A DNA stretch of 64,000 nucleotides from Lepisosteus oculatus (taxonomy: Eukaryota > Chordata > Actinopteri > Semionotiformes > Lepisosteidae). Positions 7,700 through 39,075 of the stretch are shown here, in pieces. The DNA is taken from positions 16,939,444 to 17,003,443 of the forward strand of contig NC_090703.1 of NCBI RefSeq assembly GCF_040954835.1, written 5' to 3'. Position numbers and translations under genes: made by a program. The notes below the pieces were generated by a model, which made no database searches, was not told the origin of the DNA, and worked only from the letters and a program-made list of their open reading frames with translations. Numbering within the stretch: position 1 is the first letter of the stretch; each line of letters begins with the position of its first letter.

Positions 7700-8095
7700 G
7701 AAGAACCTTATTTACTGTTGGCAAAAGAGCTGTGTGGAGAAAAAGCTGCTAAACAGCTCGACCTGCTGTCCCCCCCTGAAAGACACAGTCATTCATATAA
7801 TTATTGAAATGAAGGATGATATAAAAAGTACGCTGATAGAGTGCGTTAAGATGAGCAGATGTTTTTCACTGCAATTAAATTAGTCTGTAGTCGATTTGGC
7901 CAATTTGCTCATTTACGTTAGATACGAGTTTGAGGGTACGTCCCATGAGGACTTTCTGTTCTGTAAGCCCCTACCCACAGGAACTACAGGAGAGCACATA
8001 TTTCAGTATCTGAATAAATTTATCGAAGAGAATGGCATCAACTGGATAAAATGTGTTGGAGTTTGTACAGACGGTGCTAGAGCGATGACAAGCCG
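7700..8095 (+). pseudogene. hAT transposase remnant (ZBED5/SCAND3-like)
   Basis: Two broken reading frames resemble the RNase-H-like core of domesticated hAT transposases. The stretch at 7810-7880 reads like the segment ahead of the first catalytic aspartate, ending in a block (SLQLN) followed by a stop at 7879-7881. The frame from 7896 has LLIYVRYEFEG, then EDFLFCKPLPTGTTGE, then CVGVCTDGARAMTS, the block around the second catalytic aspartate. The N-terminal zinc finger and the C-terminal dimerisation domain are absent. Family assignment is from recognition of these blocks and is firm at the level of hAT. Confidence 0.8.
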
Positions 8096-8224
8096 ACCTA
8101 ACGGTAGTTGCACGAATTAGAGAGGTTGCACCAGAAATTAATGGACGCATTTCAACATCCACCGCTAGACCTTTGCCGTCAAGAAAATTCCTGACGATTT
8201 AAAATCTGTATGACCCTGTTGTGA

Positions 8225-19272: not shown

Positions 19273-19285
19273 ATTTACATGTATA
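19273..19285 (+). repeat. left target-site duplication of SINE
   Basis: ATTTACATGTATA flanks the SINE on the left and is repeated exactly at 19572-19584. Confidence 0.85.
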
Positions 19286-19571
19286 GGTAGGTAGGTTAGG
19301 TCCCCTTTTCAGGCCATAAAGGCCCATGGGGGAATGGGGGGGCAAGGGCCACCATTTTTCTCTACCAACCGACACTGGAGGTGATGTGGTCAGCATCACG
19401 CTCCGGCTGGCTTATTACCCCCAGAAGGATTAACCCCGGTACTCAATTGGAAAGCAGGCTGAGTGGACCTGGGAGCTGTCTGGAAGGAATTAGAACAAGC
19501 TACATCGCTTGCCCCTACCTGGGATTGAACCCAGGACCTTCCAGTCAGGAGCTAGACGCCCTTGCCATCTG
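19286..19571 (-). repeat. tRNA-derived SINE with 13-bp target duplication
   Basis: The 286-bp body lies between two perfect copies of a 13-bp sequence. Read on the minus strand it starts with a tRNA-like head: GGCAAGGGCGTCTAGCTCC followed by a box B, GGGTTCAATCCC, at about 19525-19536. The 3' end on that strand is a short CCTAACCTACCTACC repeat (19286-19300). Exact duplications of 10-20 bp are the hallmark of LINE-driven insertion. I do not recognise the family name. The sharp borders suggest the copy is not ancient. Confidence 0.75.
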
Positions 19572-19584
19572 ATTTACATGTATA
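19572..19584 (+). repeat. right target-site duplication of SINE
   Basis: The second exact copy of ATTTACATGTATA. Confidence 0.85.
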
Positions 19585-21602
19585 CAGATGTACTGTATAA
19601 TTAATTAACTAAAGGGCTACCGGATATTAGTTCAAGGCACATTCATGCAGTCTTTGTCAGCCTGGGAGTGCTCATCCTTCCTCCAACATTCCTGAAATGG
19701 TTCCGACTCAACTGTACAGCATTATGGTTTTCCTTGAAAGTTTTAAAAAAGGAGACGTTAACTCCCATCCTGTAATCTGTCAGTCACGCTCTCTCTACAG
19801 CTGTCCCTCGTTGTCCTGGGGCAGCCACAAGACACAGTCAGGCACAGTCTCCGCTAAACTCATGTGTCGTGTCCAACCACTTTGCTTACTGTTGCATTCT
19901 GGGGCTGTGGGAATATCAAATTCCTTTCCTGTCATGCCTGCTCCTGTACCAGCTTGGTGGTCCTGAACCAAGTAGTTAAAAAAACCTCATCCCCTTGCAC
20001 AAACCTCTCTATGTACCCTGTGCCATCTGTATGAGTCGTGTGCCTTGTGATTAGCACTCACTCTTTCAAAATTTGATTTTTTTTTCTCCCAAGCCACAGT
20101 TTTTCTCATTCTTACTGACAGAGATGCTTCTCACATCAGTCAGTCAGGTGTCATATTAACATCAATAGATTAACCTCAAACTTGCAATTAAATATATAAC
20201 TGTCCCAAAGAGTGGATTTGTGGATCTTAATAGACTTTGATCTAAGTGGTTTGAAGGTCTTACACATGAGAGTTTTTTTAATTGTCCAATTAAAATCTCT
20301 GTAAGGCCTCTGTAGGATCTCTATAGATCATTAGAATCTATAGTTTTATAATCTGCAAAAAGGCACACGCCATTTCTCCTTAATCTCTTTTGCAATACCC
20401 CATTTTGTCCGTATTAAAAGTTTCATAATTTTCCTTCAGAAATATTTCTTAATTAAGGGGTATTCCTTTCTTCTGTTTTAGAAGTTTGATACAAAAAAGT
20501 TTCGAAATTCAGTACTAACAATCAAAACAGCCGCAGAAAACGTAAACTTTTAAAACCAGAGCAGTCATTGCTGGTGGAACATACAAGTTGGAGAATGAAA
20601 GTTAATGCCTTCTTGTCACAAGAAAATGGTTATGCTAATAGTAGTGTTTTTTCTTTGGAAAAACACTGCTCTTACCAATTACTTTCTGAGAAAAATCATT
20701 AATACGTTCTACATTATTCGCAATTGTGTGCGCAGGGTATTACTGGGAAAAGTCGGAGTACCTTTAAGTCTACGAATTTAGGAAACGTTTTAGTGTTTGG
20801 AATTAGAGTTATTATCTTCTTGCATAAATAAACTTAACCGCTGACACAGAAACCAGAAACACGAATCCCTTCTTTGTCACATGCAGAAACTTCCTTATTA
20901 AAGAAGAAGAGCAATGTCTTTAAGAACTAAAATTAGTGCCTTAGCTGAAAGGCTAATTAGAATTAATGGAATATTGTTTTCCAAGACCTTATAAATCACG
21001 CAGTGTGGGAGACTCCTGTCGTATTGTGTGCAAAGAATAACAAAGCAGTATGAAATCTTTCCTCACGTCTTTAGCTCCGGACAGACATGTTCCACTCTAG
21101 CTCAGGCAGCTGTGTATCGTTTCCATTCATCGTCAGTATAACCAAAAACACACATATTCTTATTCACAGTTTAACCAGAGACTTAAGTGTTTTTGCATAT
21201 TTGTAGCCATTTTGAAAGGCATGTTTTAGTTTTAAATATTCCAATAAACATTTGTGTTTCCTCTATGGCAGCCACAACAGCGGTATGATAGAAGAGCCCG
21301 CAAAAAAAAGCTTTGACATTACATACGCTTTAGTTCTTAAAACGATGTTGAACAATCTACTGACACAAAGATTTGTTTATTCTTGTATTAATTGTGATTA
21401 AACACTATATCTCTTATGAGATTTGATAAAGTTTACAGATTTTAAATATTAAAAGGGAAGCAAACACAAATGTGTGTAGAGAGGACAGTATTTTAGTTAA
21501 ACTTGCTGGTAAAACTGGACGGTCAGTGCATTTTCTGATTGACAATTTTTACGTTTACTACGGTATTCTCCCAGTTTTTAAAATGCTTGTATTATGCTTC
21601 TT

Positions 21603-21609
21603 TGGCGTG
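21603..21609 (+). promoter_or_regulatory. candidate AhR/ARNT response core (XRE)
   Basis: TGGCGTG fits the core TNGCGTG bound by the aryl hydrocarbon receptor-ARNT dimer, which drives CYP1 genes. It lies about 3 kb before the cyp1c1 TATA box. A 7-bp match is weak evidence and may be chance. Confidence 0.25.
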
Positions 21610-23042
21610 CCTTTGTTAAGGGGTTAGTGTATTGAACAGTTTTACAGACCTCCTAACCATGATTTTACAGTGGAATACTATATTATATCACGACGTCTAC
21701 ATGAGATACTACAGTAATCTATTAAAATGGAAAACTCAAATTACTTGAGTTTGTTTTACCAAATAATATGAATTTTGGGGTCTTTATTTTGTTGGGCAAC
21801 TGCCTGAACTTAAAACGTACAAATTTGTTTTTCAATGTCGAAGCAAGAACAAATATAAGATGCAAAATCTACAGTAGGTAGCATTTCAAACAACCAAAAA
21901 CTAGTGGGTTGGGAAATAAAACGTTTTTGTTGGGGAGGGAACACTGGAATATTTAATGAGATGTGACATTGTTATTAAAACTTCATTTTCACGAAGACTT
22001 CTTGTTTAGTATAATTGTACTCAACCTTTTCCCGTTTTATGTTACACATACAAAGAATGGTGAGGCATCATTTTCAATGCTATGCAGATGACCACGGAAT
22101 GGAAATGCGGGAGTAACTGTACTGAATCTTGATATGAAAGCTATAAATTTAATCTCCTTCACAAAACAGCCAAACCCATCCAAACAGTTTTACAGTTTTA
22201 CTACAGAATAGGTGTGTTTTGAGTTTCTTAGACAATTCCGTTAAACCAACCCCCTGAGAACACTTAACGGGAATCATTAAATCAGTCATTGTGTCGGAAA
22301 TGGGCTGAAATCCCACGAACCAAACTGCTAATTCCATTCACAAAATGTAAGCGCATACTGCCTTGGCTAGCATCACTAAGTATAAAAAGGTGCTCTTTAC
22401 TGAGATGCAGTAATTCTGTTACTCTCCGGTTTAATCAACTGGAACAAGGCATAGCTTTGTGCTAAAGCAGACGAATGTCCTTTGTACACAATAGGCAATA
22501 TACCCAGGCTGTGAGATCTGATACCTCTATACTGTACATCCAGATACCTTCTCTGATGCTCAGTGGTCCCAGTTAGATCAAAGATATCAGATAACTAAGC
22601 GGCTTTCACAATTTACTGAATGAATAAGCGAGCATCAACAGCGGAATCTTTCTATATTTACTGTATACATACAGTACAGTACATACAGAACGCAATTACA
22701 TCAGGTGAGTCATGTAACACTATTGTAGCCTACGTATAACAATTCATGTAAATTTAAAAAATATTACACGTCGAAATGAGTGTTTGTGCTTCACACCTGG
22801 ACAATTTCAAATTCCGACAAATTCTCGGTATCAGATTCTGTATGCATTTTAATGGATTATGTTGTTATGACACCTGTCTCATTACCTTCCAATCCGCAGC
22901 TGAGTTTCAAAAGGATCCCCTCAGTGTAGGCTATTTAAACAGCACTATGAAAACTCAATATGATAACAACCTTCATTCGCTTTTGTTTAAGCGAGAATAT
23001 AGATTCAAAGAAAGTGCAATATTATAATCGCGAATACTATTT

Positions 23043-23049
23043 TTGCGTG
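23043..23049 (+). promoter_or_regulatory. candidate AhR/ARNT response core (XRE)
   Basis: TTGCGTG, followed by T, fits the TNGCGTG core about 1.6 kb before the cyp1c1 TATA box. A similar core occurs about 1.4 kb before the cyp1c2 TATA box at 30707. This is a short match only. Confidence 0.3.
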
Positions 23050-23863
23050 TGTAATTTTTAACATAACCTTAGTGAAGTCCACATGGGAGGCAGATGTAAC
23101 TGCAATGACCCAAAACCTATGGCTCTTCGGAGGTATTTCATATTGCGTTACACATGAAGAAAAACAGCTTATTACATAAAACGGAGAGCAGTTAACTTTT
23201 GTGTAATAATAATGATAATTCATAAACAGAAACATTTACCGGAAGTGTTGTGCCAATATCTTTATCTGTATGCTTAAGCTGTAACATTCTCGAGGACAAT
23301 CTTAGAGTTACATCTCAGAATTGAATGCTATTTAAAACCAAATATGAAATTTGATGTGTTGCGTAATTCAAAAAGTTTAATTCATACATATACATTATAC
23401 TACATTATAGCTTAATTCATACGTGCATATATAATTCACAAAGTTTTAATGTATATCTCTGATCACCATTATTAACTATACATGTATCTATGTTCTAAAC
23501 TATAAAAATGGTTATCCACCGAACTGATCTGTCTCTTAAAGCGCTTTGAGATCATGCATAAGGGTATACAAGCTGGTGGCAAAGGAATACTTTGCAACCT
23601 GGCAAATACTTGGCTGGAATTCCGTACAAATACATAGTTTCTGGTTTTGTGCAGATTCTAAGAACATTAGAACGTAAGATAATTAGTGATCTAGTGTCGA
23701 AGTGCACAACGCCTAATACGTGCCCCTGTCCATCTGGTGTTCACCAGAAAGCCTCTCACTCCTAGTAAAGGTCGCGATATAGATGATTTTGCTTTACACA
23801 GTGTATACAATATATAATAGACTACTGCATCTATGCAGAACCTATTTTAAGATTCTAAAAAGT

Positions 23864-23899
23864 CATACGTTTTAGCATACGTTTTAGCATACGTTTTAT
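23864..23899 (+). repeat. 12-bp tandem repeat, three copies
   Basis: CATACGTTTTAG occurs three times in a row, with the last base of the last copy changed to T. It is a small local expansion about 0.75 kb before the cyp1c1 promoter. Confidence 0.85.
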
Positions 23900-24515
23900 C
23901 TTTCATTAAAAACTGTCAATATACTGTACTCCGTACTTTAATTGAAAATTGAAGCTTCATTTTCAATACATTACACAACGTACAACGTCTGGTTTAAATA
24001 ATGTTCTCCCTGTGTAACTCTAAGGAGACAGACTTTCATTAATAGAAAAAAAAATTGTGGCTCTCTGTAAAACCGACATGCGTCGTTACAAGATAATGCT
24101 GTTTGTTTTTCAGAATTTACGCACAACATTAAAAAGAAATCAGAATCATAATAATCTTTAATGTTCCTGGCATGCAAACAATACCCAAACACTTTTAACT
24201 TCAAAAGACAAATGTAAAAAAGGTTGCATTCAATTTCACTCACTTCAAACTAGCACTCACATGCGAGACAGACCGTATGAGGAGTTTGGTCCTCCAAAAT
24301 AACTCCGTAAAGATTATCCCAAATCTACATGTGAGCACATGCTTATATAAACAGTATGTACGCTGGTGATCAATCTGTTAAATTTCAAACTTTTGTTACT
24401 CCAAAATGTGTTCGCCAGAGACGTCCCTTCCTCAGTCGTTTCTACCCTTCTTCAACCTGCTGGATTCAAACACTTCACTAGCTACTGAATATTATTACCT
24501 CTGCGCACTTTCTCT

Positions 24516-24647
24516 CGCTCCTTCTCCTGGAGCGCTCTGAAACCCCGCAGGAATGAGCTCATGTAATGGGGTCTCCGGGGCTGCTACAATGGGAGGAGAA
24601 TGATAGAAAGCACAAGCCCAGCCCCTTGCACTACAAATGTATATAAG
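24516..24647 (+). promoter_or_regulatory. cyp1c1: cyp1c1 core and proximal promoter
   Basis: A TATA box (TATATAAG) lies at 24640-24647, giving an expected start near 24670. Upstream is a series of blocks shared in the same order with the cyp1c2 promoter: CTCCTGGAG (24525-24533), GGAATGAG.TCA (near 24551), GGGGTCTCC (near 24570), ACAATGGGAGGAG (near 24587) and CCAGCCCC (near 24618). The shared order shows the two promoters descend from one ancestor. No XRE core is present in this proximal part. Confidence 0.7.
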
Positions 24648-24740
24648 AGACAGTTGTAACCCTAAACAGAGCTAAGTTTGAAGCTACTCAAACATTGAAG
24701 GAGAAAAAAAAATCATACTCAAGACAGACTTCTGTACCTG

Positions 24741-24782
24741 ATGAAACTCTACAAACCACTAAATTACTGGACTGGAATCTAA
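24741..24782 (+). other. short upstream ORF in the cyp1c1 leader
   Basis: The leader predicted from the TATA box contains an ATG at 24741 that opens a 13-codon frame ending at TAA (24780-24782). It ends before the putative leader splice donor at 24797, so it would stay in the mature mRNA whether or not the leader is spliced. It could lower translation of the P450. No evidence of use can be seen. Confidence 0.35.
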
Positions 24783-24796
24783 ACCACAACTGTACA

Positions 24797-25110
24797 GTAA
24801 GAACTCTATCAGCGGACATTGCATAAGACTTTCATACAAAAAAGCACTGGACACAATTCTCAAAGATCAACCACAGATATTTTTCACAACTTTCTTGTGG
24901 ATATTTATGCAGTTGCATTTTTATTGCAAATCTTTCAGATACATTTTTTATATAATTTCAAAAGTTTAACCACTGAAGAAGCTGTGATCTTAATCCTTAA
25001 ATCAGGGAATTTTAGATCAATTATTTAAATTCTTTCTTATCCTGAGACTTCAATAGTTGTAGCAACAGCAAAATCTGTTTAAATACAGAAGAATAACGCC
25101 TACCTGCCAG
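24797..25110 (+). other. cyp1c1: possible 5'-leader intron of cyp1c1
   Basis: A donor-like ACA|GTAAGA at 24797 and an acceptor-like CTGCCAG at 25104-25110 would join a non-coding first exon to one base before the ATG. The related CYP1B1 gene of mammals has a non-coding first exon and begins translation in exon 2, so the structure is plausible. The pyrimidine tract before the acceptor is weak, and the leader may be unspliced. Confidence 0.3.
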
Positions 25111-25111
25111 C

Positions 25112-26698
25112 ATGGTGCTGTGGGATTCAGAGTTTGGAGTGAAGGGCAGCAGCAGCATCAGAGAATGGAGTGGACAGGTCCAGCCAGCTCTGGTCGCCTC
25201 CTTCGTTTTTCTGTTCTGTTTGGAAGCCTGCCTGTGGGTGAGGAACCTGAGACAAAAGAGACGTCTGCCTGGGCCCTTTGCCTGGCCAGTTGTGGGCAAC
25301 GTTATGCAGCTAGGACAAATGCCCCACATCACCTTTTCCAAACTGGCTAAAAAATATGGCAACGTCTTTCAGATCAGGCTGGGCCGCAATGACATTGTGG
25401 TCCTCAACGGCGATACTGCAATCCGGCAAGCTCTGATTAACCACAGTGCAGAATTTGCAGGAAGGCCAAACTTTGTCTCTTTTCAGATTATCTCAGGTGG
25501 CAAAAGCATGGTATTTGGCAGCTACAGCAGACTGTGGAAGGTGCATCGGAGAATTGCTCATTCATCCATCCGAGCTTTCTCTTCAGCTAACAGCCAGACC
25601 AAGGAAGCATTTGAGAAGCATGTGGTGGGAGAAGCCCTAGATCTCATCCAGGTTTTCTTGAGGCTCAGTGCAGATGGACACTACTTTGAACCTGCTCATG
25701 AATTAACAGTGGCCTCTGCAAACATTATATGTGCACTATGCTTTGGAAAACGGTATGGCCACGATGACGTGGAGTTCAGGAAGCTGCTGAGCAGGGTTGA
25801 TAAATTTGGTGAGACTGTAGGAGCAGGGAGCCTGGTGGATGTCATGCCCTGGCTCCAGGCTTTCCCCAACCCAGTGCGCAGTATCTACCAAAATTTCAAA
25901 GAGCTCAATGAGGACTTTTTTCAATTTGTGAAACACAAGGTGATTCAGCACAGGCAAACCTATAACCCAAAAATTACACGAGACATGAGTGACGCAATCA
26001 TTGGTGTCATAGAGCACGGGGTAGGCAATGAAAATGGACTGACCAAAGCTCATGTTGAAGGAACTGTCACAGATCTCATTGGTGCTGGCCAAGACACGAT
26101 TTCAACAGCTCTGCACTGGATCCTCCTCCTGCTGGTAAAATACCCTCACATCCAGGCTAAACTTCAAGAGCAGATTGATAAAGTTGTGGGCAGAGAGAGA
26201 CTGCCAAACATCGGGGACAAGAGCAACCTAGCCTACCTGGAGGCCTTCATCTACGAGACCATGCGCTTCACCAGCTTTGTTCCTGTGACAATCCCCCACT
26301 CTACCACTGCAGATGTCACAATTGACGACCTCCACATCCCCAAGGACACTGTGGTGTTTGTGAACCAGTGGTCTGTGAATCATGACGAACAGAAGTGGAA
26401 GGATCCTCACGTCTTCAACCCATCCCGTTTCCTGGACGAGAACGGAGCTGTCGACAGGGACCTGACCAACAGCGTGATGATCTTCTCCATTGGGAAGAGA
26501 AGATGCATCGGTGACCAGATCGCAAAAGTGCAGATTTTTCTGTTCACAGCCATCCTCCTTCACCAGTGCACCTTTGAGAGCAACCCTTCACAAGAAGTCA
26601 CCATGGATTGTTCTTACGGCTTAACACTGAAGCCTCTCCACTTTACTTTATCTGCCAAGCTCAGGGACAAATTCATAAGCTTGGTTTCACCAGCATAA
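25112..26698 (+). CDS. cyp1c1: cytochrome P450 1C, first tandem copy
   Basis: Predicted haem-thiolate monooxygenase of the ER membrane that, with NADPH-P450 reductase, would oxidise planar aromatic compounds, steroids and similar substrates. The frame is uninterrupted and intronless, 528 residues, as in fish CYP1C genes (about 523). In order: a variable N-terminus (1-19), a membrane anchor (about 25-43, PALVASFVFLFCLEACLWV), the proline hinge LPGPFAWP, the I-helix motif GAGQDTIS (324-331, Thr329), the K-helix ETMR (Glu382-Arg385), FNPSRF, and the haem loop FSIGKRRCIG with ligand Cys465. The start codon has A at -3 and G at +4. It matches CYP1C better than CYP1B as I recall those families. The numbering c1/c2 is by position only. 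It is expected to be induced through AhR; the sequence gives only weak support for this. Confidence 0.95.
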   Translation: MVLWDSEFGVKGSSSIREWSGQVQPALVASFVFLFCLEACLWVRNLRQKRRLPGPFAWPVVGNVMQLGQMPHITFSKLAKKYGNVFQIRLGRNDIVVLNGDTAIRQALINHSAEFAGRPNFVSFQIISGGKSMVFGSYSRLWKVHRRIAHSSIRAFSSANSQTKEAFEKHVVGEALDLIQVFLRLSADGHYFEPAHELTVASANIICALCFGKRYGHDDVEFRKLLSRVDKFGETVGAGSLVDVMPWLQAFPNPVRSIYQNFKELNEDFFQFVKHKVIQHRQTYNPKITRDMSDAIIGVIEHGVGNENGLTKAHVEGTVTDLIGAGQDTISTALHWILLLLVKYPHIQAKLQEQIDKVVGRERLPNIGDKSNLAYLEAFIYETMRFTSFVPVTIPHSTTADVTIDDLHIPKDTVVFVNQWSVNHDEQKWKDPHVFNPSRFLDENGAVDRDLTNSVMIFSIGKRRCIGDQIAKVQIFLFTAILLHQCTFESNPSQEVTMDCSYGLTLKPLHFTLSAKLRDKFISLVSPA

Positions 26699-27490
26699 AA
26701 AGCTAGGGGTTAATCAAACCTTAAATTTCTGCCTGACCTTCATTGGTAGCAGAGGCTCCTCTGTGTTAAAGACAATCGATGACACTCAACAGTGAGTATT
26801 GGCCAATGGGTTACAACCTTGTCAAATTAAACTGCACTGATCAGTACTGTTAAGGGATTTCATATTTAATATTTAATTATTATTCTACCACAAATTATAA
26901 AGCTATTATTTTTGTAAAGGGTGGTTAAATGTTATATCACATCATATTGCAGTAAAGTAAGTTATGCAGGATAGTTAAATTTAATGTTCCAAAACAGGTT
27001 ACAGAAATGTCAACTGTGACAAGTGAAAGTGCTAGTGCTAGTAAACAGGAGTCAAGGATTTTGTTAAGGTTGCAACAAAGTATTTCTGCCACAGCTATAC
27101 ATTTTCCAAAGTCTTGAGTGTATATTGATTGCTCTGCATGGACAGTAAAATGTGCGCAGCTAGTACAGAGAAAATTGTGTAAGAAATAACAGATGCCAAT
27201 GTAAGCATGCATCACATAGTGTTTATCCTGTAGTGTAAACCAATGTAAATGTGTATGGGTAAAGAGACATTTTTAGGCAAATTTAGTTTCTGAATTGAAT
27301 GAACTCATTTTTCAGTTAAACTGTTTATGCATTTCATAAGTCTTCATTGTTAAATGTATTTTTTCTGAAAATAATTACAACTTATTGTTACATTTAAATA
27401 TGTCACAAAATACCACATTTTACCTTTTTTAAAAGAATCAAAGCAAGTTTGTTAAATGTTGTAAAGTCATACTGTAATTAAATTAATAAA
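26699..27490 (+). other. 3' flank and possible 3' UTR of cyp1c1
   Basis: No coding signal follows the stop. AATAAA at 27485-27490 is a candidate poly(A) signal, and ATTAAA-like hexamers occur earlier (near 26826). A short stretch near 26785-26800 (CTCAACAGTGAGTATTG) resembles one behind cyp1c2 near 34223-34238, the only similarity I see between the two 3' flanks. Confidence 0.35.
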
Positions 27491-30400
27491 AAATAGACCA
27501 ACTACTGTAAGTAAACTAACATGACAGTGTGCTGAAGGGGATCAAAGGGAGGAACTGTTCTTCTTTTGGTACAAGCTGTTGGGATGTAGTGTTTTGTGTT
27601 GCAGAACACATTTGCTTTCAAAAACTTTAAAACTTACTGCTTCAGTTAGGAGTTAAATATCTTTCTTTTCATCCAAGCTTCGTACTGTATGAAGCAACAG
27701 CCCCAAAACAAATCATTTCCAAAAACTACTTCCACATGTTTGATGTTTGTCATTATGTACACCTCTGTTTGCATATTGAGGCCTTCAACTTATTGTTGTA
27801 AACGTTTTAGTTTATCTGCAGTGTTTTGTTACAACAATAGAGTACATAGCTCAGAAATGAACTAATTATGCACTTCGTTTTCTGAAAAACACAAACATGT
27901 GACTATCTGTTACATGTTTAAAAACACACACAATTTATAGGATTTGTTTTGTAATTGCTACAAGAAAATGACCTGTGTTGGTATGGCTGAAAGTGAGGAT
28001 CCTCGTGTCTTTCTGGCAGGTTATTTTGTGTCAGTGTAAGGGACAGTTCCCTTCTAAAGAGGGCAATGCATAGTCCTTGGTCTCTTAAAGATGTAGTCTT
28101 GAAAACAAGTTAGTATATTAAATACAATTTTGTAAATAGCTACAAGCTATTTTGTGAATGAAAAACTTGTTTATTTGGCACATCATACTTATGCCTAAAC
28201 GAATTAAATAAATACATTCCAATTTATCTTATTGTATATACATTATATGTAACACAGTAAATGGTATTACTTCTACCCTTAGAATGCAAAACAATTGCAT
28301 TATTTTCATACAATCAATTTACTATGCTCAAGTTTTATTAAACTTAGTAAACTGTGGTGAAGTGTTAGCATCACCTCAAGCCTTGCATTAGATTCATACA
28401 AACTCAAAACTGGTTTAGATCACAGGAAGGTGTACCAAGTTTAAAGGTATTTAAAGGTTTAAATACCACAGAATACCAGAGTTCTTTGTCAAACAGACCA
28501 CAAAACTACTACATATTCTCTACACATGTGTACAGTATCTGCACACACCTAAAAAGCAAACAAACTTGAATTATTTAGGTGCTGGTGACCTACAATTAGG
28601 AACTACTGTGGTGAGATTAGTGCATGGTATAAAAATTCGATTTTACATGCCAACCCACCACCTATTCTTAAATAAAGGAAACAATATAACTTAAACTTTC
28701 CAAGGCTCCCTTAAACTCTGTCCCCAATGTCATTCACAAGTGATTTTTTGTCTTTTCTATTTGTATTCTATAATAACAATGTACACAATTTTAACAATTA
28801 TGTTATCGTGTAACTTAACTGGAATATTTACAATATAACCACTCCTGTTTTTCCAAATGGATTTTCATCCAATAAACAAGGGGTTTATAAGAATAAAAAT
28901 GTATGTATAAAAAAGTACCATAAACCTTTCAAACTCCCGAAGAAAATATTGTAGCACTAGCAAAAAGCCATGCAAAACTGAAAAGTAGAACACGATTCTA
29001 AGTGCAGGTCTGCAAACTCACTAGATGATGGTTTGTATTTAATGACAAAAATTGCCATGTACTGTATAGTAAAAAACATAGCTCGACATTCAAAGCTTCA
29101 GGAAGGTCCAGTGTGCAGCACGATGTACTGTAATCTTGTAAGTGTCTCTTAAATGTTGTGAACTCTTGTTGTAGTCTTTGTGTAGTGAGTTATCAATCAG
29201 CTATAAACAAAGTGCTGCACATACAGTAGCAGTGTTCATCCTGCAGTGTACAATATCCTTTGTCCTTTGTCCTTACCACAGGAGGTACAGTATACACCTC
29301 TCCAAAGACATGAATTGATGGAATAAACAAGATGTTATAACAGGTACATTGAAATGTTCAAGGCATTATGGTTACCCAATTACAATATGGTAAGGAACAA
29401 AAAGCAAGCCTACATGGTCCAGCAGGTCTGACCTTTGGCTTAAATACACAACCAGGTTAGAGTTTAAAACCAATATATCCATGTACTCTACCACCTACAG
29501 ACATTTTTTATTTCTTAGTTTTTAATATGGCTAGGAGTTGATTAGGGATTAAAATTATCCTTTAATAAAATATCTTCCCCTACTCCTTCCTGGCAAAAAA
29601 TAAAAAATTCAGAATCATTCAGGAGAAAAAGTTTTATTACCCGTAAGCCTCGTTCCTACTATTGCAGAGAGAATCTCTGCATTTATAGTCTTTAATTTTG
29701 TGCTTGATTGTAACTTCTCTTTTTCTAAAAGATTACCATTTTCTCCATTATCTCATGTATTAAATGTATACCTTAAGCTATTCTAAAGTAACATTGTTAG
29801 ACATGTTAACATATTTATAAGTAGGCTTTGCATTTATTTTTCTTTATTTTTTAATAATGTAAACTTAGCTTTTTGATATATTTTTGTTCCTTTGTTGTTT
29901 ATCAACCAAAATGTGAATTCAATTTAAAGTGGATGTTTCCGAAGGATGAAAAATCACTTTCTTTTGTTTGCACAAATCAGCACACTAATAAATACATAAA
30001 AATAAAAAAATGAACAAAAGTAACTGAATTAGGCATCTGCTTAAGTACAGTATTTACACATTTCTTATGACTCTTAACAGTTAAACAGGGATTAGGTTTC
30101 TCCCTGGCTTCATTCAACTTTAACAAATTTCAGAGGGAACAAGAAGGCATCAATTAAGTCAATAACCAAGCATACTCTGTCCACCTGGAAACATGCATGT
30201 TAAAAACCATCTTATTACAGGTTCATCCCCATGGAAGAATATACAGTATACAGTGCAGGAGTACACCACACACAAGGGCAGAATTCTGCAGCAATGTTTG
30301 CTGCATGCAGATCCCAATATCTGAATCTCTGTGATATGTTTCCCTGCAGTTTTAGTCATTTCACTTCAGATACATCTTAAATCTCAAAGGCGTATTTAAA

Positions 30401-31995
30401 TCTTTCCTCAGTTGTGACATATTTGTAATTAAGAAATTTCAAAATGTCTCAGCTTTCAAAAAAGTGAAGAACGACAGGGCCAAGGTCTTTACTTAAACGC
30501 CAGATTGATTCCTTAAGATTTTATTATAAACTTAAAAGTTCATATTGCTCAATAAAGGACGATTCTGACACTTTCAATGTACTTCATTACCTAAAACCCA
30601 ATTTCTCCTCTTACAACAAACTGTCAATTGAATTTAGAATAATTCAGATTTCTCTGAGGAACTATCATATTCAAACTCAATCATTTCATATTGCAACCAG
30701 CCCGTTTGCGTGGACATCATCAGTTGTTTTGAATGAGTAACCTGCCTGAACCCTGGAGCCACAAATGCAGTTCACGTTATTAAACACAAAATAATATTTA
30801 ACTTCATATTTTCTGTTCAAAGCTACAGTATATAAAATAGACAGGCCTAAATAACCTTATATAAATAAGCCAAAATGTATGAAAACAACACCCCCACTTA
30901 CAATACTGCAGCATTTTAGAATTTGAAGCTGCAGCTTTATAGAACATCAGCCCTCAAATATACAGTACACAGTACACAATTACAAATCAATTGCAAGATC
31001 CATACACAAGTCCGGGGTTCCATAACTAAGAGTATCAAGTAACTGATTTTCGAAAATGTTTGCTACAAAGAACAATAAAGTTAATGTTTTTATTTATTAA
31101 ATTGTTTATCACTCAATTGGCACAGCAAGAAGTTTAGACAGTTGCTTATGAATGGATACCAGCTTTCCTGATATGGCAGGTTGCAAATCTAGCCATCACA
31201 TTGCCCAAACATACCATCTGTTACACTACAGGCCAGTGAAGCAAAACATATCTAATAAATGATTTAGAAAGTAGGGACTTGCTCCAACCAAAGAAAAAAA
31301 ACCCCAACATCAGTATTCCAAAATTAAAAAAGGCCACACTCCCCAGATCTATCCTCCATAAAAGCTTGTAGTAAAAATATCTAATTTCTCTAAACCACAG
31401 TGCTAACCAATCCACCTAATTTTAATTCATATGACAGTTCAATGAAAAAATGTTTCGGTAGTGTGTTCACCCTGGTATATAAATTCAGAATATACACAGA
31501 AAATATGTATATATTATATTGGCTATATATTATTTATGTTAACATCTGTTATAACCATGTACAGTTTGATAAACAGGTAATGGTAGATGATTAAACTGTT
31601 CTCCTGGTGAAAAATAAAGGTAACGTACAGCATAAAATGATGGAAGTCGTAATCTTATTTAACTTCCTGGAAATATGTCAGAGAGGTAGGATTTTAGCAT
31701 TAAATGAGTTAAATCTATTTTACTCCCTGTCAGAAAGTATCCGTCTTAAAAAAATGAAAAGTATATGCCAAAATACATTTTAAATACAGATCACAGGAGC
31801 TATTCTCATTTTACCTAAATGCTGATTTTACCTAAAATAAAACAGGCATTTAATCAGTAAAAAAGAGATTTGTATGTGTTTTTTATGACATCAGAACTGT
31901 AGTTACATCCTTTACAACAGCTGGCATTTTTTTCAGTTCAGCAATAGCTACTATTGCACTATGACCTCCCTGGTTTGCTAAGATTTACTTCAACA
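27491..31995. other. intergenic spacer between cyp1c1 and cyp1c2
   Basis: About 4.5 kb of AT-rich DNA with no recognised exon or transposon. A small TGTCCTT triplication lies near 29260-29280. A TTGCGTG core at 30707 is listed separately. Open frames such as 30159-30359 and 31221-31415 on the minus strand are short and unremarkable. Confidence 0.5.
30707..30713 (+). promoter_or_regulatory. candidate AhR/ARNT response core (XRE)
   Basis: TTGCGTG, followed by GACA, fits the TNGCGTG core about 1.4 kb before the cyp1c2 TATA box. It is the only such core I noticed in the intergenic spacer. Weak by itself. Confidence 0.3.
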
Positions 31996-32135
31996 CTACT
32001 GAGTGATGATCTCCTGGAGGAATGAGATCAAGTTGTAAAGTTCAGTAGGGATACTGGGGTCTCCACAGTGGCCACAATGGGAGGAGTAAGATAATAAACC
32101 AAGTTCCAGCCCCCAAAACTAAACAGATATATAAG
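31996..32135 (+). promoter_or_regulatory. cyp1c2: cyp1c2 core and proximal promoter
   Basis: A TATA box (TATATAAG) lies at 32128-32135, 447 bases before the ATG; the cyp1c1 spacing is 472. Upstream it shares with cyp1c1 the blocks CTCCTGGAG (near 32010), GGAATGAG.TCA, GGGGTCTCC (near 32057), CACAATGGGAGGAG (near 32073) and CCAGCCCC (near 32107), in the same order. Between blocks the sequences differ by substitutions and small gaps, unlike the near-identical coding regions. Confidence 0.7.
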
Positions 32136-32309
32136 GGAGAGTGGCAAGGCTAAATACAGCATTTCTAACCTCATCTACTCAACAGGACTGAAACAGAGCA
32201 AACCTTTGAACCTGTGTTGGAGTATTAGGAAAAATTATTTAGAAGAAACCAAAGCACATGGGCTTATTACAGCAATACCTTGTCATCGTCTAGATTTACA
32301 GTACCAGCG

Positions 32310-32390
32310 ATGAACAGTTTGAATGGATTTTATTTCAGATTTAGAGGTATGTCCATTAATCAAATGTTGGGCAAAAATGAAGCACACTAA
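32310..32390 (+). other. short upstream ORF in the cyp1c2 leader
   Basis: An ATG at 32310 lies in the predicted leader and opens a 26-codon frame on unspliced RNA. If the candidate leader intron (32347-32524) is removed, the frame still ends quickly, a few codons into the next exon. It does not resemble the cyp1c1 upstream frame. A role in translation is only a possibility. Confidence 0.3.
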
Positions 32391-32524
32391 AACCTTGCTG
32401 TCAGACGGAAGAGGTGCTTTAACATTTTACATCTCATAAATAGTATGTGAATGGAAAAACCCTTTAAAAAGACACTTTAACTGGGCACCTGTGAAAGAAG
32501 ATTTAACTTTTTTCCACCACACAG
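32347..32524 (+). other. cyp1c2: possible 5'-leader intron of cyp1c2
   Basis: A good donor, AGAG|GTATGT at 32347, and a good acceptor with a pyrimidine tract, ACTTTTTTCCACCACACAG ending at 32524, would excise 178 bases and leave 50 bases before the ATG. A non-coding first exon is known for the related mammalian CYP1B1. There is no transcript to confirm it. Confidence 0.4.
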
Positions 32525-32574
32525 AGCAGCATCAACGTTAAAAAAAAATCAGAAGGAGTTGTGGATAATTCATC

Positions 32575-34152
32575 ATGGCACAGAGCAACACAGACTTTAG
32601 AGTAAAAGAAGGCACTGCAAAAGACTGGAGTGGACAGGTGCAGCCAGCTCTGGTCGCCTCCTTCATTTTTCTGTTCTGTTTGGAAGCCTGCCTGTGGGTG
32701 AGGAACCTGAGACAAAAGAGACGTGGACCCTTTGCCTGGCCAATTGTGGGCAACGTTATGCAGCTAGGACAAATGCCTCACCTCACCTTTTCCAAACTGG
32801 CCAAAAAATATGGCAACGTCTTTCAGATCAGGCTGGGCCGCAATGACATTGTGGTCCTCAACGGCGATACTGCAATCCGGCAAGCTCTGATTAACCACAG
32901 TGCAGAATTTGCAGGAAGGCCAAACTTTGTCTCTTTTCAGATTATCTCAGGTGGCAAGAGCATGGTATTTGGCAGCTACAGCAGACTGTGGAAGGTGCAT
33001 CGGAGAATTGCTCATTCATCCATCCGAGCTTTCTCTTCAGCTAACAGCCAGACCAAGGAAGCATTTGAGAAGCATGTGGTGGGAGAAGCCCTAGATCTCA
33101 TCCAGGTTTTCTTGAGGCTCAGTGCAGATGGAAACTACTTTGAACCTGCTCATGAATTAAAAGTGGCCTCTGCAAACGTTATATGTGCACTATGCTTTGG
33201 AAAACGGTATAGCCACGATGACGTGGAGTTCAGGAAGCTGCTGAGCAGGGTTGACAAATTTGGTGAGACTGTAGGAGCAGGGAGCCTGGTGGATGTCATG
33301 CCCTGGCTCCAGGCTTTCCCCAACCCAGTGCGCAGTATCTACCAAAATTTCAAAGAGCTCAATGAGGACTTTTTTCAATTTGTGAAACACAAGGTGATTC
33401 AGCATAGGCAAACCTATAACCCAGAAATTACACGAGACATGAGTGACGCCATCATTGGCATCATAGAGCACGGGGAAGGCAATGAAAATGGACTGACCAA
33501 AGCTCATGTTGAAGGAACTGTCACAGATCTCATTGGTGCTGGGCAAGACACGATTTCAACAGCTCTGCACTGGATCCTCCTCCTTCTGATAAAATACCCG
33601 CACATCCAGGCTAAACTTCAAGAGCAGATTGATAAAGTTGTGGGCAGAGAGAGACTGCCAAACATCGGGGACAAGAGCAGCCTAGCCTACCTGGAGGCCT
33701 TCATCTACGAGACCATGCGCTTCACCAGCTTCGTTCCTTTGACAATCCCCCACTCCACCACTGCAGATGTCACAATTGACGACCTCCACATCCCCAAGGA
33801 CACTGTGGTGTTTGTGAACCAGTGGTCTGTGAATCACGACGAACAGAAGTGGAAGGATCCTCACGTCTTCAACCCATCCCGTTTCCTGGACGAGAACGGA
33901 GCTGTCGACAGGGACCTGACCACCAGCGTGATGATCTTCTCCATTGGGAAGAGGAGATGCATCGGTGACCAAATCGCAAAAGTGCAGATGTTTCTGTTCA
34001 CAGCCATCCTCCTTCACCAGTGCACCTTCGAGAGCAACCCTTCACAGGCAGTCACCATGGATTGTTCTTACGGCTTAACAATGAAGCCTCTCCACTTTAC
34101 TTTATCTGCCAAATGCAGGGGGAAATGTTTAAGTTTAGACACTCAAGCATGA
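32575..34152 (+). CDS. cyp1c2: cytochrome P450 1C, second tandem copy
   Basis: Intronless frame of 525 residues, the same predicted ER monooxygenase as its neighbour 5.9 kb upstream. It keeps all catalytic motifs: GAGQDTIS in the I-helix (321-328), ETMR (Glu379-Arg382), FNPSRF, and FSIGKRRCIG with haem ligand Cys462. By hand count about 18 residues differ from cyp1c1 between residue 19 and the last 14 residues, while the first 17 and last 14 codons differ strongly. A 6-bp loss removes Leu-Pro from the proline hinge, leaving RRGPFAWP in place of RRLPGPFAWP. The ATG has A at -3 and G at +4. Its own TATA promoter shows it is not a retrocopy. Conversion with cyp1c1 is likely. Confidence 0.95.
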   Translation: MAQSNTDFRVKEGTAKDWSGQVQPALVASFIFLFCLEACLWVRNLRQKRRGPFAWPIVGNVMQLGQMPHLTFSKLAKKYGNVFQIRLGRNDIVVLNGDTAIRQALINHSAEFAGRPNFVSFQIISGGKSMVFGSYSRLWKVHRRIAHSSIRAFSSANSQTKEAFEKHVVGEALDLIQVFLRLSADGNYFEPAHELKVASANVICALCFGKRYSHDDVEFRKLLSRVDKFGETVGAGSLVDVMPWLQAFPNPVRSIYQNFKELNEDFFQFVKHKVIQHRQTYNPEITRDMSDAIIGIIEHGEGNENGLTKAHVEGTVTDLIGAGQDTISTALHWILLLLIKYPHIQAKLQEQIDKVVGRERLPNIGDKSSLAYLEAFIYETMRFTSFVPLTIPHSTTADVTIDDLHIPKDTVVFVNQWSVNHDEQKWKDPHVFNPSRFLDENGAVDRDLTTSVMIFSIGKRRCIGDQIAKVQMFLFTAILLHQCTFESNPSQAVTMDCSYGLTMKPLHFTLSAKCRGKCLSLDTQA

Positions 34153-34699
34153 GGAATTTAGTACTTGTCAACACTGGTCCTTGGGATCTATGTTTGAATC
34201 AGACTTGAGGAAGCCAATAACATTCAAGTGAGTATTGCAATTGTTAAAAGATTCAGAAATATTTATGAAATATAAAATATGTCTTGTTTAGTGTGCCCTG
34301 AAAAATAACAGTGACCAGTAAGATTACATCAAAGATGTTGGCATTTTTAAACCCATAAAATAGATAATGCCATAAAATGTTTGAATTTTTTCAGTATTCT
34401 TCATATTTTGTTGGAAGAAGAAAAGCCTAACTTAGATATGAAGTATAAACGAACTACACTGTCAGAATTAATGCAAATCAATATTTGCTTTTTTACCATT
34501 CTTTAGCAATTACAAATAACATTCATATATTACTGTTTGTATACCTTTGGATAAAAAAAGAGGTTAAGCACTCTTTTTGCAAAAAAAATCCCTTTATTAT
34601 GTTAGCCAGCAATTCATGAGCAATGTTAATGGTGATGAAAAAGAAAAGATCTCAGATCTCTTTGTGGACTATGGTAATTATGCTGTAAAAGAAATGTGG
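34153..34699. other. 3' flank of cyp1c2
   Basis: AT-rich sequence with no clear nearby AATAAA in the first 500 bases, so the 3' UTR may be long. Candidates occur later, the cleanest being CCAATAAAGTCTTC at 36827-36840. Confidence 0.35.
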
Positions 34700-34995
34700 T
34701 TGATGAAAAAGTAAAGCTTGTTGTGGTTTATTCAGACCACAATTTTAAAAAGACATTGAAAGGGCACAATAGAAGTATATTATTTGGCTACTCAAAGCTA
34801 GCATCTACATAGGCACTGTTAAGAAGTGCAACGTTTTGGCCGTGGAGCCTTCTTCAGGTGTGAGAACACCTGAAGAAGGCTCCACGGCCGAAACTGTGTT
34901 TTCTTTCTTCTTTTTTTCAGCATGGAAAAAACCTATTACTTGTTCCTTTGCAGCCTACGCATGTTGACGCAGCTACCCACCTGAACTGTTAGGAA
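34700..34995. mobile_element. remnant of a repeat with inverted termini (Penelope-like?)
   Basis: Centred on a perfect inverted repeat, both arms carry a copy of the block CCTGAAGAAGGCTCCACGGC followed by CCGAAAC or CCAAAAC. After the right arm the text runs TTTCAGCATGG, AAACCTATTACTTGTTCC, GCAGCCTACGCATGTTGACG, wording I recognise from an abundant fish retroelement whose class I cannot fix. CTGAAGA...GAAAC loosely resembles a hammerhead-ribozyme core, which Penelope-like elements carry, but the stem II fit is imperfect. Two copies in head-to-head orientation suggest an inverted insertion. Confidence 0.4.
34838..34889. repeat. perfect 24-bp inverted repeat with 4-base loop
   Basis: The left arm 34838-34861 and right arm 34866-34889 are exact reverse complements around the loop GAGA. 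With one wobble pair the stem extends five more positions on each side (34833-34894). It is far too long and exact for chance. Confidence 0.95.
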
Positions 34996-37054
34996 GTGTA
35001 CCATTTGAAATATGCTGTTGATTTTGTGACATGGGTAATTTACTCATTTCAAGTAAGCTCCATCCATGGTGAACCACACCAAAGCTAATGTCATGAAATG
35101 TTTTCATTCCAGTCCATTGATTCGCAGCTCATCTACTCTCTATTTTCTTTATCTGTCAACACACTTGGCAGGCAGATATTCAAACATTTGAGAAACATAT
35201 TTGTTTTTACCACATCTCATTAACACCATCATTAGTGCAAAGCAAAATACCACAAGGCCTTGTGGTTTTTTCCTACAATTTGAAAAATAGGAAAGGTAAA
35301 AGTAGTAAAAAAAGGTTTCTCAAAGAATTTCTAATGCAGAGACAAAGTTACAGTAAAACAGGGTACAGGAATTAGTTTTCTTCATGTGTACTTTATTAAT
35401 TAGAAAGGGATACGAAGGATTATTTTAAAAACCAAACTCCTCCAACATGTGCACACAGTTAACTGCTTTAGGTCATGATAAAATGACTTCTGGGTCACCA
35501 TGTGCTCGGTGGTCACCCGTTCATGACCCCTGTCCTTACTAAATATAAATTCATGTAGAAATAAAAGATCAAAAGTAAATGTGCACTGAAATGAGAAAAA
35601 GTAAAATTAAAACGTAAATTCAACAGAAAACCTTAAAAGACATATTTGTGAAAAAATAAAAATAGAAAAAAGTAAACTGTAAAACCCCTTAAAAAGTTTT
35701 AGTCAAAAAATACCACACGTCACCTTTACACCTACCTTTCAGTTAAAAAAAAATAACACTTTTTCCCAGCATTTCTAAAATTCTTACAATAATTATCATA
35801 CATCTAGATGACATCTAGACATCTAGAGACTTGTGTCTTGCTAAAACTGAGACTTCTTACACTCATAGTAACTCATTTATTTTAGAATTGCGGTTCTTAA
35901 TAAAATATATCAGACATGAATCTTTTTCTTATATTTGGTTTAACACAATAAATCATTTTGAATTGAGCTAAAATCAGTAAAAGCACAGTGCAACTTCCAA
36001 AAAGCACAAACCGTTATCAAACACAATGCAGAATCTTACTGTGTTCACCTTTTTTGAAAATAAGATTTAAATGTAAGATAAGTTCAAGTTGCTTGTATTT
36101 AAGGCTATTTTGTTACTGAGAAATTAATGTGTTTTAGCCATTAAGAATTGAAGCTATCAGACAAGATGCAAAGCAGTCTATATACTGTATGTAGGTCACT
36201 GGCCAGATTTATGATACAGGCGTACAAATAGAACTTAAGCCGTAGTGTATAGTCTTGCGATATACATAAACTTTTAGCAATTCAAAAATGCAAGTCAGTT
36301 TTTTTTTTACATTTTGTTCACATTTTCATCTTTTCTAAATCATTCCTTATAAACATGAAATCAATTACTTTTGGAAGTTCTAGCAACAAAAACATTTTCA
36401 CAAAGGTAAGGAATGTCCAAACAACTCTCTTGTAAAAAATGTGATGATAAAAATAATTAAAGACAAATTGAATATTAATATAATATGTGGGTATATTTGT
36501 TCTTTACTGGAAGAATCATAGAAACCAATTATGAATGAAAAAATCACAGCTGGTACAAGTCTGTCACTAGTAAATGACAATCAGCATTTTAGAATAGAAT
36601 CCTTGTCATGTTCTGTAATAGATTGCTGCAATGCATATAATTGATTTCAATTTTTAATGGGCCCCTGTAATGTACGGTTATAAGAATGTTTTATTTCTTG
36701 ATTAATAAGTATAAACTATGATAATCAAGGTCCTATATGCATTACACATTATTTTTAATGCATATTAATTTTCATTTTGTCAACATTTATGTTTTGCATG
36801 TTATTTTATGATTCAATACCAGAAAACCAATAAAGTCTTCATTGAAAAAATGATGCATTGTCTATTGTTCTTCACTCAGAAAAAAAAACATTCAAAATAA
36901 ATACAGAAATAAATAAACCTGAGGTCTGGGAAGCTTCACGACACAAAAGTAAATCTGAAAAGGTCATTTCTAGTTACAATATAAGAAGATAACAAAAGTC
37001 TGCAACAGAGAGGGGGTCATTCCCTTCTTGCTTATTTGGTAGTTTAATAGCTGA
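34996..37054. other. intergenic, AT-rich; possible poly(A) site at 36829
   Basis: No gene is recognised. AATAAA at 36829-36834 followed by a G/T-poor stretch could end a long cyp1c2 transcript, about 2.7 kb after the stop; this is unproven. Other AATAAA hexamers occur near 35560, 35886 and 35948 in AT-rich context. Confidence 0.4.
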
Positions 37055-37575
37055 GTGAATCTAAAAATTCATCCAGCTGTTTCTGAAATGTGCCCCGAGT
37101 TTGGCCCTCCTGGCCGGAATTTGGCTGGAACGCCTGTTCCAGAAACCCACAGATCTCTGAGCAAAGAAATGTTTCATATTCTCTGTTCTGAATGTATTCC
37201 CCTTAATCTTTCAGTTGTGATCACCATGCTCTTGTTTCAATACTGAGTGTGAAAAAGTCCCCTTAGTTAAACCTAGCTATAACCCTTAACCCTATAATGA
37301 TTTTTATACCTAGATCAAATTTGATCTGTTTTAGATTAAAGAGATTTACTGTAGTTCCCTCAATCTGTCTAAATATATGACACTCCCCTGACACTAGGAT
37401 TAATTTTGTTGTACTTCTTTGCACTCTTTCTAAGGCTATATCTTTTTTGAGGTATAGTGACCAAAACTGAAATGATCTCCAGACTTGTCTTATTAGTGCA
37501 TAACTTCCCAAAGATTTAACTTCCCAGGATTTAAATTCCACACTTTGTGCTCTCCACCTTTCTCTACAATACACT
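37055..37575 (+). repeat. degenerate interspersed repeat, class unknown
   Basis: Wording such as CTGTTCCAGAAACCCACAGA, AGTTCCCTCAATCTGTCTAA, TTGCACTCTTTCTAAGGC, TTTTTTGAGGTATAGTGACC and CAAAACTGAAATGATCTCCAG follows, in order, a repeat common in non-teleost and some teleost fish genomes. I recognise the family but cannot name its class. The copy is old and has gaps. Confidence 0.5.
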
Positions 37576-38280
37576 CCATTTCAAACTTTAATTTTATGCA
37601 CAGCATTTTGGAAGGCAAAATTCTCTTCTTCATGAAAGTTTGTAACCCTCAGAATTGTGGATGTCCTCAAATTCACATAAGCTTCAAAAAGCTACCTGAT
37701 ACTTAAACAGGATAAGTCTTAGCATTGCCAGGTGGTTTTTGAGGCTTCTTTACTTAAAACATCTATTAAATATAATAGTTGTGTTAACCACCCCACAAAC
37801 ATTGCAATCCAGCAGTTACTGTAGATGTACAGTTTAATGCATAAGTGAAACATAAACCTAGGAGAATAAATAAAATCTGCAAAATAGTTGCTTTCACAAG
37901 GTTAACGGCAGAGAAGGCTCAGGCAGTATAACGTTTTCACTGTTCACATTTTGTCTCAACTCTGGCCCTGTGGATTTCTCTCTGACTTGTGGAGGGAGAG
38001 AGGAGTCAGGAGGTGGGCTGGTAGCCACAGTACGTGCCTTCAGTTCAATTGCCAGTGCATACAGCACACCACAGAAACAGAGTAGCTGAAAGGGCTTCTT
38101 TTAGAAGAAAGGTCAGCCATTCCTCTAGGAGGCCTACACCTCCCTGAACATTTAATAGGAAAACAAATCTTGCATGTTCTACTGTATATCTGTACACAGA
38201 CCCCACCATGTGTCCATTTGTAAACTAATGTTGGGACTCTGCAAATTCAGGAGATTTGATACTGTTCACACTTCTTCTAA
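37576..38280. other. intergenic, nothing recognised
   Basis: No gene, RNA or repeat that I can support. Confidence 0.5.
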
Positions 38281-38340
38281 AAAAACATAAGAAACGTATA
38301 AAGTTAGAGCAGACCATTTGGTCCTTCTTGCGGATATGCC
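38281..38340 (+). repeat. short copy of the same interspersed repeat (head)
   Basis: ACATAAGAAACGTATAAAG followed by AGACCATTTGGTCCTTCTTG matches the start of the repeat seen at 37055-37575 (usually CATAAGAAA...GGCCATTCGGCCCATC). It is downstream of that copy in the same orientation, so it is a separate insertion, heavily truncated. Confidence 0.5.
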
Positions 38341-38899
38341 TTGAATTACCAATAGGAAAGAATAGGAAAGCTGAAAAGCAGCTCCATGATGCTTTTCTTC
38401 ACATGACATGAGTTCAAGTTTTGTATCTGTTGTGAAGAAAACTCATTAATATTAACTTGCATCATCGTCATTGAATTAGCAGTGTGTAGAAGTGAATAGT
38501 GTTACTGTAAAATCTTGAATGAAGCACTTTTGCTGTACCCTGAACCAAGGTACTTCCTGCCCTGCTGTATAACTGGGTACTCTACACATTGTCATTTTAA
38601 ATAGTAATTTGCTCTTAACTGACTAACCTGATTTTTAGATAAATGAATATTATTAGGCAGTCCCCATACAATTAAAGGAAGGATGAGGACTAAGCACCCT
38701 TCTCTAGTTTTCTGGTCATTGCTTGTACTACAAGTCCCAAGATGTCCAAAGAAGATTCAGCATCGAGTGGAGAAAGACGGGTAACTACGTTCACAGGCTC
38801 TTTAAAAAAGTTATAGATGTCACAGTTATGCCACAAGCTGTGAATATGACAGTTGATTAAAATACAAGAAAACCCAAGCAGCACTAACCTTACTGTGTG
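38341..38899. other. intergenic, nothing recognised
   Basis: A short imperfect duplication, AATAGGAAAG twice near 38351-38370, is the only pattern seen. Confidence 0.45.
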
Positions 38900-39075
38900 C
38901 CAACACCTGGAGGAGTAGCACTCAGAATTAAGCTCATAATATAGCCCAGACTTGAACTGGACACATCTGGACTAAAGGGTACAACCTGCAATCCAAATGA
39001 CCATTTACGGATTGAGTCACTCCAAGGCCCTGAACTCTGCTTCTCACAGCAATGAGCATAACACTTTAACCTGAG
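38900..39075 (-). repeat. probable tRNA-derived SINE
   Basis: Read on the minus strand there is a box-A-like TGACTCAATCCGTAAATGG (near 39003-39021) and, some 50 bases later, a good box B inside GTCCAGTTCAAGTCTGGGC (near 38944-38962). The text resembles a fish SINE reading GTGTCCAGTTCRAGTCTGGG. The borders are not clear. Confidence 0.45.

Follow-up and report, generated by a model that had tools for sequence, protein, structure and literature searches.

Probable interlocus gene conversion in the coding bodies of two tandem cyp1c-type genes of Lepisosteus oculatus

A stretch of 64,000 nucleotides from Lepisosteus oculatus (contig NC_090703.1, positions 16,939,444 to 17,003,443; referred to as the window) carries two P450 genes of cyp1c type, arranged head to tail and separated by 5.9 kb. 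The locus raises the question of how two coding bodies could be so alike when the ends of the same reading frames, the leaders and the flanks are strongly diverged. A sequence-only reading of the window had proposed that the bodies were homogenised by gene conversion. The present analysis, confined to one genome, supports that proposal: an old tandem duplication followed by interlocus gene conversion of the coding body is very probable, as judged from sequence comparison.

The uninterrupted open reading frames (ORFs), read from the genomic sequence, correspond to a single coding exon in each gene, and the predicted proteins were identical at 488 of 525 aligned residues. The best solved relatives of copy 1 were CYP1B1, then CYP1A1 and CYP1A2. 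Copy 2 could also be aligned with solved CYP1B1 and CYP1A chains, and CYP1 proteins were the nearest relatives of both copies; no CYP1C-labelled chain was among the 56 solved sequences listed for copy 1 at E ≤1e-30. According to the available text of the zebrafish and mangrove killifish reports, CYP1C1 and CYP1C2 are single-exon genes, whereas CYP1B1 has two exons and CYP1A and CYP1D1 have seven each (PMC3012610, PMC5751882). The P450 domain, the CYP1 relatives and the single exon fit a putative CYP1C assignment.

The coding body and its borders

The two coding sequences differed at 74 of 1578 aligned sites, and the distribution of these differences was analysed with a three-segment change-point model using 2-log-unit support intervals. 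The best fit separated an N-terminal segment (22 of 51 sites differing), a body (36 of 1487) and a C-terminal segment (16 of 40). Twice the gain in log-likelihood was 134.7, and the observed likelihood was matched by none of 2000 full-grid permutations and none of 300 on a coarser grid. The density of differences in the ends and in the body was likewise distinct (Fisher p ~7e-31). The support interval of the 5′ border was 25162-25169 (8 positions; codon 17-20) and that of the 3′ border 26655-26659 (5 positions; codon 516 of 528). Abrupt borders inside the reading frame had been claimed in the sequence-only reading and were recovered here, with a shift in their exact place, as the 3′ border falls 12-13 codons before the stop and not about 14.

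The body was 97.6% identical, with one in-frame 6-nucleotide deletion in copy 2. The earlier description of the bodies as nearly identical was thus correct as to high identity and not as to near-identity throughout, since 19 silent and 18 replacement changes (codon 18 included) were counted in addition to the deletion. Divergence at silent sites (dS) was 0.060 and at replacement sites (dN) 0.016, for a dN/dS of ~0.26, and 10 of 207 fourfold sites had changed. Per site, replacement changes were less frequent than silent changes (p 8e-5), indicating that purifying selection has acted. The silent changes were spread evenly when the body was divided into five segments (p 0.61), and the body differences comprised 22 transitions and 14 transversions. 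At G/C-A/T differences the G/C was in copy 1 in 14 cases and in copy 2 in 19, a count from which biased conversion is not inferable without an outgroup.

The ends were 57% (29/51, N-terminal) and 60% (24/40, C-terminal) identical. The N-terminal ends were offset by one one-codon gap; the C-terminal ends contained no gap and were of equal length. Their dS was ~1.6 (codons 1-17, 9.3 silent sites) and ~2.5 (about nine silent sites), respectively. Both borders flank the Pfam domain, the body spanning roughly codons 18 to 516, and the hydrophobic anchor ahead of the P450 domain was judged by eye to lie inside the body. At the other end, phmmer matches to CYP1B1 stopped at residue 519-521. The borders therefore probably coincide with the limits of constraint.

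Within the body, a 330-nucleotide stretch that the sequence-only reading had singled out beforehand contained one difference, an A/G change at 25504 that is silent (Lys), between flanking differences at 25348 and 25679. The claim of one silent change at 25370-25670 was therefore exact. A run of this length with at most one difference had a permutation p of 0.037, with P of 0.052 for silent sites alone and 0.011 for replacement sites alone. This gives a weak hint of a later, shorter conversion event; stronger constraint could also be the cause.

Flanks, leaders and promoters

Flanks as young as the body would be expected to give local alignment scores from ~350 for the leader up to ~840 for 1 kb, whereas scores of 12 to 20 were observed. 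Seven flank tests were made in which the local alignment score was compared with 200 shuffles each, covering the leader, the promoter, two upstream kilobases and three 3′ stretches. The observed score was reached by 161 shuffles for the leader, by 35 and 85 for the upstream kilobases, and by 4, 88 and 31 for the 3′ stretches; for the 250-bp promoter region it was reached by none. A blastn comparison of 18000-29500 with 29500-40000 (E ≤1e-3) gave no hits beyond the coding block and the promoter.

Divergence was simulated with an assumed indel rate in 100 replicates at each distance. At 0.6 substitutions per site, scores as low as those observed were obtained in 1, 6 and 2 of 100 simulations for the leader, the first 3′ kilobase and the first upstream kilobase, respectively, and at 0.8 substitutions per site in 30, 84 and 62. 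Given the assumed indel rate, a divergence of at least about 0.6 substitutions per site is indicated for these three flanks. The flanks are homologous, yet their divergence exceeds that of the body by a factor of about ten or more. The strong divergence of leaders and flanks described in the sequence-only reading was thereby borne out, and flanks as alike as the body, which it had named as grounds for rejecting conversion, were not found by blastn, shuffling or simulation.

The promoters had been described as paired and much changed. Indeed, a 110-bp alignment around the TATA box retained 72% identity (79/110). The distance from TATA to ATG was 472 nucleotides in copy 1 and 447 in copy 2. This similar spacing, together with the shared promoter, indicates that the leaders are colinear and that the duplication took in both promoter and leader. 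A second TATATAA was present at 24949, within the unaligned leader of copy 1. No Rfam match was found in 22000-38000.

Farther upstream, TTGCGTG occurred once per gene at ~2 kb (23043-23049 and 30706-30712), in surroundings that could not be aligned by eye. The more general TNGCGTG was present 13 times in the window against 6.3 expected, a count reached in 2 of 100 shuffles, with three sites clustered at 11094-11149. By their motif, these are possible candidates for AHR response elements.

Table 1. Coordinates of the features described in the text (numbered from the first letter of the window).
Feature	Position	Strand	Details
cyp1c-type copy 1	25112..26698	+	single exon, intact ORF, 528 amino acids; Pfam p450 E 6.2e-109, residues 53-512
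cyp1c-type copy 2	32575..34152	+	single exon, intact ORF, 525 amino acids; Pfam p450 E 7e-110, residues 51-509
Conserved proximal promoter, copy 1	24564..24672	+	TATATAA at 24640
Conserved proximal promoter, copy 2	32052..32160	+	TATATAA at 32128
Leader, copy 1	24690..25111	+	local score 12.0 against leader 2
Leader, copy 2	32180..32574	+	no detectable similarity to leader 1
Putatively homogenised body, copy 1	25166..26658	+	change-point fit
Putatively homogenised body, copy 2	32626..34112	+	same alignment, mapped coordinates
Diverged (putatively unconverted) N-terminal codons, copy 1	25112..25165	+	change-point fit
Diverged (putatively unconverted) N-terminal codons, copy 2	32575..32625	+	same alignment as copy 1
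Diverged (putatively unconverted) C-terminal codons and stop, copy 1	26659..26698	+	change-point fit
Diverged (putatively unconverted) C-terminal codons and stop, copy 2	34113..34152	+	same alignment as copy 1
6 nucleotides (Leu-Pro of LPGPFAWP hinge)	25264..25270 (copy 1)	+	absent from copy 2 (32723-32724); placement alignment-dependent
Near-uniform 330-nucleotide stretch	25349..25678	+	single silent difference
RMDN-type exon (RMD1-3)	51922-52020	-	Pfam E 6.7e-9; solved RMDN3 E 2.3e-7; clean splice sites
RMDN-type stretch	51175-51228	-	closer to RMDN3 piece than to RMDN2 piece (pieces approximate)
RMDN-type stretch	46257-46349	-	closer to RMDN3 than to RMDN2 piece (pieces approximate); match crosses stop at edge

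Gene conversion and its rivals

The pattern that marks gene conversion was found at this locus, namely a sharply bordered block in which silent divergence is low, set between homologous flanks far more diverged than the block. Purifying selection alone on old duplicates would explain the lower rate of replacement than of silent change, but silent sites are also alike, while the ends and leaders are strongly diverged, and extreme silent-site constraint would be required across 1.49 kb. The low silent divergence of the body, as against diverged ends and unalignable flanks, thus disfavours selection alone, which is the least probable of the explanations weighed. A recent tandem duplication with flanks later replaced or scrambled by insertions and deletions is very unlikely. 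In its favour, the noncoding DNA around the genes is AT-rich, insertions are neither findable nor datable from one genome, and tandem repeats in 22000-37000 amounted to one short array. Yet similarity would have had to vanish on both sides of both genes and into the reading frames, when homologous diverged end codons, the alignable promoter and the TATA-ATG spacing were all kept, and the leader scored 12 where one of the age of the body would score about 350. Leaders that are colinear yet unalignable are not expected of a recent duplication.

An assembly or polishing artefact, in which reads of one copy in part overwrote the other, is rated just as low in probability as a recent duplication. 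The copies are long and similar enough to cross-map, and the 330-nucleotide stretch with its one difference could be a polishing patch; the remaining differences, however, resemble the products of evolution, in that silent changes are evenly spread and exceed replacement changes per site, transitions outnumber transversions, and the single deletion is in frame. Conversion templated by reverse-transcribed mRNA instead of direct DNA-DNA repair would be compatible with a block lying entirely within intronless coding sequence, which for lack of an intron carries no diagnostic mark of such a template, but the block ends inside the reading frame on both sides and includes neither the leader nor the 3′ untranslated region (UTR). 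This route is less probable again than an artefact.

The favoured model, conversion between old tandem copies, would begin with the duplication, head to tail and long ago, of a single-exon CYP1C-type gene with at least its proximal promoter and leader. The copies would then have diverged strongly outside constrained coding sequence, and interlocus (non-allelic) gene conversion would have replaced ~1.5 kb of one copy by the corresponding sequence of its partner. Purifying selection is presumed to have preserved the similarity of the membrane anchor and P450 domain, allowing pairing over a long region of near-identity, whereas heteroduplex would not have been sustained over the end codons and noncoding flanks, already too different, which would account for the border positions. 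The changes now seen in the body would have arisen independently in each copy after conversion. Silent changes show no uneven distribution across the body, so a single long event, or the final one in a series, suffices.

Several points weigh against this model. All evidence comes from one haplotype of one genome, which bears on paralogue clustering, on the donor and on the assembly. A tract of 1.5 kb is long for a single conversion event in vertebrates. The end segments are short, so that their dS is imprecise. The 3′ stretch matched by 4 of 200 shuffles represents a weak alignment signal, lost on correction for seven tests, and the repeat check of the flanks covered tandem repeats only.

Polarised by eye against CYP1B1 and CYP1A, the likely derived states included residues 73 and 205 in copy 1 and, in copy 2, residue 392 and the loss of Leu-Pro; most replacement sites were uninformative, and the donor copy is not deducible from them. 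A scan for related loci returned 7 stretches fitting a search pattern among viral contigs and 22 among prokaryote contigs, none confirmed in either collection; being viral and prokaryotic, both are silent on fish.

Published systems, protein changes and neighbouring loci

Goldstone and Stegeman reportedly described CYP1A conversion in birds in 2006. Conversion between CYP1A1 and CYP1A2 has been published, with the human-mouse signal, in the accessible part of that report, in the first 500 bp of exon 2 and in exon 5 (PMC3199271). As there, the present genes are linked old paralogues of the same P450 family with partly homogenised coding sequence and a diverged remainder; unlike the head-to-head CYP1A pair with its several exons, the cyp1c pair is head to tail and intronless, with nearly the whole body as one block. 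CYP21A2 and its pseudogene in great apes are also duplicated P450 genes in concerted evolution by non-allelic conversion, but in that system one of the two is a pseudogene and conversion leads to disease, whereas both cyp1c copies are intact (PMC3843699, in its available text). The linked single-exon CYP1C1/CYP1C2 pairs of zebrafish and mangrove killifish, each on one strand, resemble the present layout, and the accessible portions of their reports describe no conversion (PMC3012610, PMC5751882); the zebrafish survey refers to conversion among linked paralogues in general terms, with a citation of the CYP1A work. A search of the open-access literature, including the available text of PMC3012610, PMC3229566 and PMC6988351, found no description of conversion between CYP1C copies. 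Interlocus conversion is an already known process in P450 genes, of which the CYP1C pair would be a new case.

According to the same partial sources, the upstream copy bears the name CYP1C2 in zebrafish (PMC3012610) and CYP1C1 in mangrove killifish (PMC5751882), so the names in print are not consistent with position. This mismatch could result from conversion or from naming by discovery order. The labels c1 and c2 used in the sequence-only reading are not to be taken as orthology. The two zebrafish proteins differ from each other, as chicken CYP1C1 is reported, in the text available, to share 51% identity with zebrafish CYP1C1 and 47% with CYP1C2 (PMC3229566). Zebrafish cyp1c1/cyp1c2 primers, taken from the accessible parts of PMC3252317 and PMC6321216, were tried as orthologue probes and set aside as too weak, the four matching the two copies at no more than 13-16 of 18-23 bases; one of the four matched different places in the two copies. 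No morpholino sequence directed at the cyp1c start codons was found in the literature text available.

If conversion keeps the bodies alike and promoters and leaders are left to diverge, regulation, more than enzyme activity, may be what chiefly distinguishes the two genes. Fish CYP1C1 and CYP1C2 are among the genes listed as induced by dioxin-like compounds in the portion of PMC3252317 available. Orthology labels from coding trees would then be unreliable, and expression probes would belong in the ends, leaders or UTRs. The locus would also provide a clean example in which conversion stops where constraint stops.

The Leu-Pro loss, in copy 2 only, is in frame and falls in the proline-rich hinge after the membrane anchor, where two CYP1B1 chains read PPGPF. 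Proline-rich hinges matter for P450 folding, and the loss, as predicted from the sequence, may alter the stability of copy 2. At codon 392, Val is replaced by Leu. In the alignment this codon lies two residues past a position with Val in CYP1A1 and Leu in CYP1A2, which is presumed to correspond to residue 382 of substrate recognition site 5, following the available part of PMC3199271.

Among 10 ORFs of at least 75 codons searched against Pfam, one gave a match above the cut-off (RMD1-3), two fell below it and seven had none. RMDN-type exons lie 12-18 kb downstream of the cyp1c pair on the minus strand and were assigned by best match to RMDN3, which we take to be a synonym of FAM82A2. RMDN2 (FAM82A1) lies beside CYP1B1, so the choice of RMDN3 over RMDN2 from approximate pieces is not decisive. 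A search with two approximate RAD51 pieces gave no convincing RAD51 exon (best E 0.71). In the available text of PMC3229566, FAM82A2 adjoins CYP1C1 in chicken, Xenopus and anole and is on a separate chromosome from the CYP1C genes in zebrafish; the cyp1c-RMDN order is reported there for tetrapods and not for zebrafish or stickleback. Judged by this order, the host may be a fish outside the teleosts or a teleost in which the locus was resolved in another way. That the tandem pair is far older than gene trees imply, having arisen at the original RMDN3 locus ahead of the teleost genome duplication, with bodies converted in separate lineages and body trees showing a false recent duplication in each species, is an unlikely reading. 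In that event the true history of the pair would be kept solely in the promoters and in the end codons (the first 17-18 and the last 13).

Elsewhere in the window, a 78-codon open stretch at 7884-8117 (plus strand) had no Pfam match and, by eye, resembles a hAT-type transposase fragment.

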